This document shows positions 16,736-21,615 of a stretch of DNA of 45,399 nucleotides, piece by piece. The stretch lies in assembly GCA_012839815.1 (NCBI GenBank), contig DUMQ01000020.1, positions 1 to 45,399 on the forward strand, written 5' to 3'. The position numbers and the translations under genes are program-made. The notes beneath the pieces are model-generated. The model did not search any database and was not told where the DNA came from. It worked only from the letters and a program-made list of their open reading frames with translations. The first letter of the stretch is position 1. The number at the start of each line of letters is the position of its first letter. Source of the stretch: Bacillota bacterium. Its GTDB lineage: Bacteria > Bacillota > SHA-98 > Ch115 > JABLXJ01.

Positions 16736-19400
16736 TCAGCATATGGCAATATAGTCGCAACCCCTGCACCAGTCTCCGCGCCGGGGCGCAAACTCGTTGC
16801 CGCGTATCCCATGAATCCACCGGCAGATCTCCTCCCGGAATCGATCCAGCTCCTGCGGGTCCTCCTTGACTGGTATGACGGTCCCGTCCTCAGAGTCGAG
16901 GTCGTGGATCGCAAGGCGGACGGGATTCCAGCCGAGCCTCCGGGCCGCCTCGGCGTATAACCGCAACTGGTTCTGATGCTGGGGAAGCGGCGGCCGGTTC
17001 TCTGCCGTCTTGATGTCTATGATTTCGACAGCGTCCTGTTCTCCTTTTCCTCCTGCTTTGAGTATAAGGTCGATCCTTCCCCTGAGCCGGGCGGCGCCGT
17101 CCAGCGGGATTTCGAAGCGGCGCTCCACATCCAGCGTTCTCACCAGACCTGGCCCATGCCTCCCTGCATAGCTGGTCAACCGCCTGAGAAGCGCATCAAA
17201 CATAGCCTGGTGCTGCCTGGCACTGGCAAACGGGAGATAAAAGCAATCCCGGAGAATCGAGATCGGGTCGCCGGCCCCCGGGGTAAAACCATTTCTGGCC
17301 CTCCGGGCCATTTCGCACACCACGTGATGGGCCACCTTGCCGAAGCCCAACGCTGGCGCGATTGGCGGCGCGAAACCGCATACATACCGGAGATGATACT
17401 TGCGGGGGCACTCACCGTAAACCAGGAGTTGAGTGCAGTCCACGGTGCAGGTGTTCCGCTCGCCGGCCCCGGATCTGATAACCTGCAGCCCGATCTCGCC
17501 GAGACGGCGAAACTCCCCCCTTATTCCCTGGTTTGCTACCAGCTCCCGAAGGAAAGGCGATAGATATGCCCTCCTGGCCTGGCGCTCCTGGTACTCCTTA
17601 AAGCAGCTCAGCACCAGCAGCTCCTTCGCGCGCGTCATAGCCACGTAAAACAGGCGACGCTCATCCTCGAGCCGCCCCTCGTAGCGTTCCTTATCAAAAA
17701 GCCGGGCACCGGGATCCTCCGGGATGTACCACCTCTTCTCCCGCCCCGTGCGCGCAGAGGGGAAGCGCCCATCTACAAGACATGGCACGAACACTACGGG
17801 AAACTCCAGGCCCTTCGCCTGGTGGATCGTCATGATGTTAACCGACCCGGCGTCTGGCTCGCCCCCTCCGGGTGTCTCCTCTATCGCCTGGGAGGCGAAT
17901 CTCTCGAGGAATGCCCTCAGGCGGCCAAGGAAGACCTGACCCGGCACAGGCTTCGCACCTCCGGGGGCGCCTCCCGGGGCAAACGGCCGGACCGCGGTCA
18001 AAGTTCCCCCGGCATCGCCCGCGCGGGCATCGTCCGCTCGGGCCTCCAGGATCAGGCTCTCTTCGGCGACTTCGAGTTGGGCTTTGGGACCTGGCCCTCC
18101 CAGCCACTCGAGTCCCGCGTCACCCGCGGGTAGGCTGCGCCTTATAGCGTGTTCAAAATCTACGAGTAAAGATGACATGTTCCCCAGGACGCGCTCCTGC
18201 CGTGCCCTGTCGGGGCCACAGGGAAGGCCCAGAACCGATAGAACCTCCATATAGGTTTGCGCGAGATCACTCACCCCTCCGGCTCCCGCGACGAGCCTCT
18301 CCCCCATCTCCTGGATACGGGAAACTATCCTGGCCGCTTCTTGCCAGCTTTTCCCTGTGAGACACCCCACCTCCTCGATGAGTTCCTCCGGCCGGACCCG
18401 CTCTTCCTCATCGTTGGGCCACCAGGTACCCCCGGCCCATAGCACGAAAACATGAGCAACAAGCCTCATTTCAGGCCGGTCCAGTAACGATACCTTCCCC
18501 ACGATTGAAGCCGGGATGCCTGCCTTGCTCAGGGCGTCCACCAGCGGCCTGGAGGATGTGCGCACCGACCTGCAGAGGATAGCTATGTCCCCGGGCTTAT
18601 AACCATCCCGGAGCAGGCCTTTTATCCTCCAGACGATCCCCGCGGCCTCGTCGTCCGGGTCACGGGCCATCAACACCTCAATAGATGAACCAGCATCAGG
18701 GCGGGTAGGAACTATCCTCTTATCCACCCTCGGACTTATTGTCTCAGCAAATGCCGCGGAGACTCTCACAATCGAGGGAGAGCTTCGATGGTTCTCGTCC
18801 AGGGTTTTTACCGGGCCGCCATGTCGCCGGGAGAAGCCCACGAAAAGGGAGACATCTCCCCCTCTCCACTGGTAGATGGCCTGGTCATCATCGCCCACCA
18901 CGGTGAGGTTCGCTCCCAATTCCTTCAAGCATTCAAGCAGGGCTTCCTGCGCCCTGTTTAGATCCTGGTACTCATCCACGAGCACCTCACGTACCCGTCC
19001 CTCGAGACCGGCCCGCAGGGGGCCCCCGGGCCTCAGCCCCTCCACAGCCCTCAGGATTATCTGGTCAAACGAGAGAAGACGCATAGCCTCAGCCAGTTTC
19101 TCATACCTGTCAACCGCGGCCGCAAACTGCGGGGCCCGCTTCCAGAGCTCGCTCATTGGGATGGCTTCGCTGTAAACTGCCGAAAGGTTCTCGATGAAAG
19201 TATCAACCGCCGCCTTAACTGAAACCCTTGTCCCGGGCCATGTTGCTTCAAAGAGGTCGACGATCCCCAGCCGCCTTGCAAACCTGTGCAGCAGCGCCCA
19301 TTCCCTCTCCTCAGTCAGGACATCGTACAGCTCATACTCACCCGAGCCCCTGAGGAGATCAAGGCAGTAACTATGAATGGTGCCGGCAAAAAGCCCGGAC
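16736..19400 (-). pseudogene. UvrD-type helicase with C-terminal PD-(D/E)XK nuclease, N-terminus lost
   Basis: Superfamily 1 helicase fused to a Cas4/AddB-like nuclease. Family similarity begins at about 19393 with GLFAGTIHSYCLDLL (motif Ib/Ic). Then come motif II VLVDEYQDLN, motif III VVGDDDQAIYQWRG, motif IV LDENHRSSPSIV, motif V VNIMTIHQAKGLEFPVVFVP and motif VI DERRLFYVAMTRAKELLVLS. The C-terminus has GECPRKYHLRY, the nuclease core EIIDIKTAE, QLRLYAEAARR, and WCRGCDYIAIC, whose cysteines could hold an Fe-S cluster. The Q-motif and Walker A (motif I), normally about 80-100 residues upstream, are absent. Upstream the frame (open to 19666) is only a shadow of the Ski2-like gene. Without motif I it cannot be an active ATPase by itself. 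Confidence 0.8.
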
Positions 19401-21615
19401 GAGGACGGGGGAGCTTTATCTTCTTCAAGGGTGTCTCGCCGACCCAGTCGTTTACGGCCCTGAGCCACTTCTCCCTCTTGGTCTCGTCGCCAAAGAAGTC
19501 CTCGGTGACCCAGGAGGCCACATCTGAGGGTGATGGGGTTCCAGCGTAATTCAGCACCCTGTCCCTGGCTATCCTCGAGAGGAGCAAATCCAGCCCCGAA
19601 TTGGCCGCTATCGCGCCGACGCCGGTTGCCCTGAAACCGCCGGGGACCCGTTCGATGAGCCCCCATGCGGCGAGGATATCCATCGCCACCTTGATCTTTG
19701 TCCCTAGGTCCAGAGTCTTTCGAAACCGGTGGGCGGAGGCGTAAAGCGCGCGATTTCTGGTCTCTTCGTCCACGATGCCGGTATCGTCAAAGAGGAGTGT
19801 ATATATTGCGCAGGCAAGATGTTTGCAGGTTTCCCTGCGACGCCATTTGCTCTTGGCAGGACAACTGCACTCCTCGCCGGCGATTGTAAGGCTGAAGTTG
19901 TAGATTTTATCGCCAGATACAACTGAGCCGGCCACCCCGTCTGACACCGGCCATGCCCGCTCCAGGCGGATGGATCCGTTCACCTTGGAGAAGGACGGGA
20001 TATCCTCCATGATATCAACCTGGAGCGGTCTGTCAAAGGATATCGCCTGGGGTTCAAGATGATACCAGAGGCTCTCGCGCACAGCCTCTGCTGTGTCTTC
20101 AAGGGTCGCTTCCCCTCTATCTGATATCACCGCCAGCAGGAAACGCATGAACGAGTCAAAGGAATCGGGAAGGCGGCTCCTCACCGGATTGCCTTTGGCC
20201 TCGCGTATGGCTAGCTCCAGCTGGGATAGTTCGTCCTCGTCAAGGAGGTCCGGTTCAACCGGGGCAACGCCCAAGCCCGCCTCCACCTGACCTGGCCTGC
20301 CGGCGCGCCCCAGCATGTTCAGGAGTTCCCCCGTGGATAGAACCACCCGCCTCGGGCGTCCACGGATGAACTCCATCCTGTATACGTCTCTCACTACGAC
20401 CAGGCGCGCGGGTAGGTTAACCCCTGCCGCGAGCGTAGGAGTGCATGAGATGACTTTGAGGTGACGATTGCGAAACGCTGCTTCCACGCAGAGGCGCGCG
20501 TCTCTCGAAAGACCTGCATGATGGTAGGCTACCCCGGCCGAGAGGAGTTTGAGGAGATCTTCAGCCTCCTCTTCGTCGCCGGCCGCATGCGCTGCCGTAT
20601 CGGAGAGGGCGCGGATATCATCCTCAGTCAGGAAACCGGCAACCAGGGCCTGCAGGTCCGAAGCAACCTTCTGGGAAGCAGCTTTGGAGTTGCAGAAGAT
20701 GATGGCCTGTTCACCCTTTTCCAGAGCCCGGGCTACCTCTGCCTTGAGGCGTTCTCCAATGTCTTTCTCGACTTCGCAGCGGAATTCCACCTCCACCGTC
20801 CGGTCCTGAGCGGAACCGAGAATCAAGGGAACCCCCAGCCAATCCGCAAGTTCCTGCGGATTTGACACGACGGCGGAAAGTGCACAGATGGAGGTGGGCC
20901 TCTTCCACGTCTTCAGCCTCACGAGCAGGCTCTCCAGCGCCGGGCCGCGGCTCTCGTCCGCCAGCAGGTGGACTTCATCCAGGACGACCCTCCCGAGCCT
21001 GAGGTCCTGGGACGGGAGGAGAGCAGAGAATCGCTCGAAGGTCGAGACCAGGATATCCGTCTCTCCGGGATAGAATGGGTCCCTGTGGTCGCCGGTGGAA
21101 ATCTTGACGCGGGCCGTCGCTCCTCTTTGATCAAGCTCCCGCAAAAGGGATTCGTAGATCTCGGCCGCCAGCGCCCTGTAAGGGACGAGGTAAGCATGCA
21201 CGCCCGGCTCCCCGCGCAAAACCGCCTCCTCCAGTATCGCACGGCCGATGTAGCTTTTCCCGGTGCCGGTCGGGGCGACGATCAGGCAATTGCCCGTGGT
21301 TATAACCCCTGCCGCACTGGCCTTCTCATAGAGAGGGAAAAGAGGGAACTTATGGCAAATATTAGAAGAGTGAGTCAATAGCTGGCCCGGCCGCGGGCCC
21401 CGGCCTGACTGCGGGCCTGGCGGCCGGTCCTCAGAGCTACTTTGTAATCCTGGCTCAACCGGCAACCGGTCCTCTTTCTGTCTTTGCCTTTGTCTCTGCC
21501 TCTGTCTTTGTCTCAGAAGATTCTGAATGGTATGCAACGCGTTGATTATGACGCTAGCTACACTTATGACGCCGACTGCTCCTCGCGCTGAACGTATGGC
21601 GCCGCTGTTTATCAT
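19385..21615 (-). CDS. Ski2/Hel308-like DEAD/DEAH helicase with SWIM zinc finger, C-terminus altered
   Basis: Superfamily 2 helicase. Walker A is APTGTGKS (residues 114-121), motif II DEVH (213-216), motif III SAVVSNP, then VAYHHAGLS, SCTPTLAAGVNLPARLVVV and the motif VI region NMLGRAGRPGQ. A SWIM zinc finger (CSCPAKSKWRRRETCKH) sits at about residues 578-600, inside the C-terminal domains. The N-terminal 90 residues contain a run of Arg-Gln dipeptides from a hexamer DNA repeat, and the true start may be later than 21615. The family frame fades at LKKIKLPRPRPGF (about 19400), where it meets the UvrD remnant in the -1 frame; the open frame itself continues to a stop at 19315. Probably a DNA repair or unwinding enzyme, now truncated. 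Confidence 0.75.
21471..21515. repeat. Hexamer-type simple repeat (TTTGTC/TCTGCC)
   Basis: A run of near-identical six-base units such as TTTGCC, TTTGTC, TCTGCC and TCTGTC lies in the 5' part of the Ski2-like gene, where on the minus strand it encodes the alternating Arg-Gln tract. The low complexity suggests replication slippage rather than a folded domain. Confidence 0.75.

Follow-up and report, generated by a model that had tools for sequence, protein, structure and literature searches.

On the minus strand of the window (the whole stretch of DNA analysed, 45,399 nucleotides), two open reading frames, 19315-21615 and 16736-19666, overlap and are mutually out of register. Do they represent a natural arrangement, possibly read as one protein, or what is left of two genes that were once whole? 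A first, sequence-only reading had described a Ski2-like helicase running into a UvrD-nuclease devoid of Walker A. It had attributed this to a deletion that joined two helicase genes and shifted the reading frame, a fusion protein made by slippage being considered less likely. Pfam and the alignment with relatives bore out this description.

Two helicase frames and their joint

The upstream frame, hereafter Hel308-like, matched the DEAD and Helicase_C families, and the downstream frame matched UvrD-helicase (PF00580), UvrD_C (PF13361) and PDDEXK_1 (PF12705), all in one frame. The PF00580 match started at profile position 74 of 271, positions 1-73 being absent, while the matches of the four intact relatives that were scanned started at positions 1-3. 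Alignment with relatives revealed that the first 80-102 residues were missing from the UvrD of the window, including Walker A, which was present in eight out of eight intact relatives; the TFTEKAA motif was missing as well. DEYQD, GDDDQAIYQWRGG, TIHQAKGLEFP and VAMTRAK were retained, as were the nuclease residues RGRID and DIKTAE and the C-terminal cysteines. The earlier claim that motif I was gone and that the later motifs and the nuclease were preserved thus held. As listed, the UvrD ORF starts at an ATG at 19666, placed within the upstream gene.

After its helicase core, the Hel308-like protein carries a SWIM-like CxC...CKH motif. As had been suspected, its tail is short: the window copy ends before the HhH-like segment of its relatives, and a foreign tail of ~30 residues, beyond 19408, closes the ORF. 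At the other end, the first ~92 residues (21340-21615, minus strand), with an RQRQRQ run, were matched by nothing in relatives. Where this ORF truly starts is uncertain, possibly near residue 80.

Position of the two frames and of their joint in the window
Feature	Position	Strand	Remarks
Hel308/Ski2-like helicase ORF	19315..21615	-	766 aa; family similarity from ~21339 down to 19408
UvrD helicase without its N-terminus, with Cas4-like PD-(D/E)XK nuclease	16736..19411	-	UvrD family similarity and Pfam
Probable deletion joint, Hel308-like ...KKIKLP meeting UvrD PPSSSGLF...	19407..19413	-	Alignment with relatives
Run of five T	19388..19392	-	Inside UvrD-family sequence; not the site of the frame change

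The register changes within five consecutive C (19407-19411), the frames being offset by one base. Similarity to the Hel308 family ends at KKIKLP (19408) and similarity to the UvrD family begins at PPSSSGLFAGT (19411), where relatives read LPPSSAGLFAGT or MPPSAAGLFVGT. The joint is more than a chance meeting of two frames, since residue-level matches to relatives were found on both of its flanks and the UvrD body, 884 residues long, is free of stops. The sequence-only reading was right about the two registers but not about the switch, which it had put at the T-run, itself misplaced at 19395-19400. It had also extended the Ski2 character too far, up to ...RPRPGF, and had started the UvrD character too late, at FAGT. 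Slippage at the T-run was ruled out because UvrD similarity already begins upstream of it, the change of register in the C-run lying about six codons before.

The gene pair in other bacteria

In a collection holding one genome per species (84,980 species), 72 loci with a UvrD relative were found, and all of them were searched for a Hel308-like protein. A Hel308-like gene lay directly upstream of UvrD in seven (L047-L053). As L051 and L052 represent one contig assigned to two bins, six of these loci are distinct. At another of the 72, L117, a weak Hel308-like match stood some kilobases off, on the other side. Within the phylum, strong Hel308-like matches occurred in 5 of 398 genomes, namely the own genome (G000), G009, G014, G157 and G319. 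Among 31 genomes searched around G319, two had a Hel308-like match, G319 itself (a single-contig genome) and G409, and both carry the pair.

At each of the eight distinct loci that carry the pair, the two genes follow one another in the order seen in the window but are separate. Everywhere, 677-1324 nt stand between the points that meet in the window (753 in L047, 719 in L048, 689 in L049, 748 in L050, 1324 in L051, 677 in L053, 725 in L140 and 700 in L143). What lies between them is the HhH-like end of the Hel308-like gene, then the stop/start junction, then the beginning of UvrD, which carries Walker A. For six of the loci this segment was measured in residues: the Hel308-like end contributes 143-159 (358 in L051) and the UvrD start 80-102. 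The HhH-like segment that closes the intact Hel308-like proteins shows LGRAR..LY or a close variant of it. An overlap of 4 nt between the two genes is seen in L048, L049 and L053, and the genes of the remaining loci are no more than ~60 nt apart. The relatives with separate full-length genes that the sequence-only reading had proposed to look for do exist, and they carry the missing 677-1324 nt.

The window joint was found neither in these eight loci nor in the class fragments examined (see below). A stable natural arrangement was rejected because no relative was found with the same joint, and a programmed frameshift would have the joint and frame change conserved, which was not the case in the relatives examined. 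Separate genes with the segment between them in eight out of eight distinct loci are, in turn, what is expected for a fusion made by deletion.

Several of these loci showed features of their own. The Hel308-like gene of L047 (2140-4529) is frameshifted in or near the SWIM-like segment, and that of L048 is cut by the contig end. In G157 (L141, reverse strand), the Hel308-like gene is spread over three frames, with shifts in or near the SWIM-like segment and near the start, and no UvrD partner neighboured it in the 14 kb read. The identical 14,255-base contig of L051 and L052 was binned as candidate division KSB1 and as Phycisphaerae, which makes its host uncertain.

The class comprises 17 genomes, the own one included. 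The whole pair was found in none of the 16 others, and five of them (G004, G005, G006, G009 and G014) hold only fragments of it, ~50-88% identical. In G006, a Hel308-like piece adjoins UvrD pieces near stretches resembling the sugar-nucleotide genes that flank the window pair. Since 5 of 16 class genomes hold nothing but fragments, the pair seems to be coming apart in this lineage. More generally, it seems to be often lost, given these fragments and the frameshifted Hel308-like genes of L047 and G157. G006 in fact holds several scattered Hel308-like and UvrD fragments, on its contigs 83 (L031), 96 (L033) and 126 (L124), and Hel308-like and UvrD pieces adjoin in two places.

A probable deletion and its alternatives

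It is probable that a single deletion of roughly 700 bp broke and fused neighbouring helicase genes that other bacteria keep whole. The ancestor would have carried, next to each other and in one direction, a gene for a Hel308/Ski2-like helicase with SWIM-like and HhH-like parts and, after it, one for a UvrD-Cas4-like helicase-nuclease. We infer that one event took away the last part of the former and the first part of the latter, the ends being joined out of frame in the C-run, presumably at short or no homology. The predicted products would be a Hel308-like protein with the foreign tail in place of its HhH-like end, and a UvrD frame with neither ATP-binding loop nor start of its own, hence with no active UvrD motor. 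In the window genome, the function of the pair is thus probably lost. No repeat accounts for the deletion, since the words common to the two joint points are no longer than expected by chance in the eight relatives, whose sequence may differ from the ancestral sequence of this strain. The proposal of a deletion leaving a frameshift, made at the outset, is supported by the eight loci that have the segment and by the lack of any with the joint.

Could the missing piece have moved? A query made of the lost Hel308-like end, taken from L047, gave no match in G000, and none in the five class relatives tested with it. The same query matched four out of four control genomes with the pair, L047's own included. 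The UvrD start matched at four places in G000: the stub at the joint and three other long frames, of UvrD type. The Hel308-like body and the UvrD body occur once each in G000. Relocation within the genome was rejected, as the piece was not found there.

The two bodies show little erosion. In a comparison of nine sequences, 187 columns are invariant among the eight UvrD bodies other than that of the window, which differs at 2 of them; the other sequences, counted likewise, differ at 7-19 of 192-204 columns. For the Hel308-like body (eight sequences, L048 being omitted since only its end is present), the values are 4 of 161 family-invariant columns and, for the others, 1-13 of 158-170. Both counts are lenient on sequences that have close relatives among those compared, and are only a rough sign. 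The UvrD frame contains no stop, where shuffled DNA of equal composition gives 29.6. Neither body has any, and the joint itself is the sole sign of decay. This suggests that the event was recent, that the assembly is wrong or that the remnants are still useful; by its sequence, the event looks recent.

A wrong assembly would mean that both genes are whole in the organism and that the contig was misjoined or collapsed here. The genome is indeed a draft of 163 contigs, the gene bodies are otherwise undamaged, and a second fusion-like ORF lies on the same contig (43472-44818). However, the genome is rated 99.71% complete, and none of its other contigs carries the missing Hel308-like end, which a misjoin would usually leave there. 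Moreover, no long repeat is common to the two joint points in relatives, and class relatives show comparable breakage. We consider such an artefact unlikely. The second ORF (minus strand, 448 aa, TTG start) has a LacI-type sugar-binding domain at residues 82-292 and part of a GH38 alpha-mannosidase at residues 296-414 (profile 62-180 of 270). It looks like another fusion made by deletion, here in one frame, and no second copy of the joined form was found in the own genome.

Useful remnants would imply a fusion protein made by slippage or restart, or a UvrD without its N-terminus kept as a nuclease beside the Hel308-like motor. Both bodies are conserved and open, and the nuclease residues and C-terminal cysteines are in place. 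Yet the joint is in no relative found, and the run at the joint has only five bases (C), a length at which slippage is weak. The start at 19666 is inside the upstream gene, no ribosome-binding sequence is evident in the 18 nt before it, and Walker A is kept by all eight intact members. A functional product seems very improbable. Slippage had been ranked second from the start, and rightly so: the frame change sits at the joint, is conserved in no relative found, and the product would still be without Walker A. A real and recent deletion, in a gene pair that the lineage is losing, is the best reading.

The intact pair and known systems

The joint itself represents ordinary gene loss, and the intact pair is the more interesting object. 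For annotation, the joint is a warning that two ORFs resembling a divergent helicase pair can be parts of broken genes. A Hel308-like gene next to a UvrD-Cas4 gene, overlapping or closely spaced in distant bacteria, is a candidate repair or defence unit, and the two proteins perhaps play a joint role in one of these processes. They would most likely act together on DNA, the UvrD protein unwinding and cutting and the Hel308-like protein serving as a second motor. The pair looks little studied, and a limited literature search found no description of it. One tentative reading is that it constitutes an undescribed two-motor helicase-nuclease unit, patchily distributed over several phyla and lost here by repeated deletions. 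Possibly, then, a SWIM-bearing Hel308-like helicase is closely coupled with a UvrD-Cas4-like nuclease, the window being a fresh case of deletion.

Among defence systems, the helicase cores of Gabija GajB and Hachiman HamB match the window proteins in part. Membership was rejected, as the PADLOC matches to HamB and GajB cover the general helicase core; the GajB models (382-725 positions) are shorter than the nuclease-bearing protein of the window. A phage origin was likewise rejected, the best relative on a viral contig, among the best 80 matches listed, being 23% identical over residues 149-941.

Like Hel308, the window protein has an SF2 core of Ski2 type, which matches Hel308 models (E 1e-49 to 1e-78), its best curated models being of this type, and archaeal Hel308 structures such as 2zj2 and 2p6r. 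It scored 203 bits against the curated NCBIfam cut-off of 1200 for NF040935, and intact relatives likewise fell below it (214 and 169 bits). Unlike Hel308, it has a SWIM-like segment after the core, and the window copy also lacks the C-terminal HhH end with its RAR-like motif.

UvrD-Cas4-like (pfam12705) helicase-nuclease fusions are described in PMC5704561, which connects them with defence systems and, by analogy, with recombination. The words Hel308, COG1204, Ski2 and SWIM do not occur in that paper. As in these fusions, a UvrD-type SF1 helicase is followed in the window by a PDDEXK_1 (PF12705) nuclease with C-terminal cysteines, in one frame. In contrast to them, the window copy has no N-terminus and no Walker A, and thus no working SF1 motor. 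The intact relatives differ in their company: their partner is a Hel308-like gene, whereas the neighbours named in PMC5704561 include type III R-M and Dcm/Vsr.
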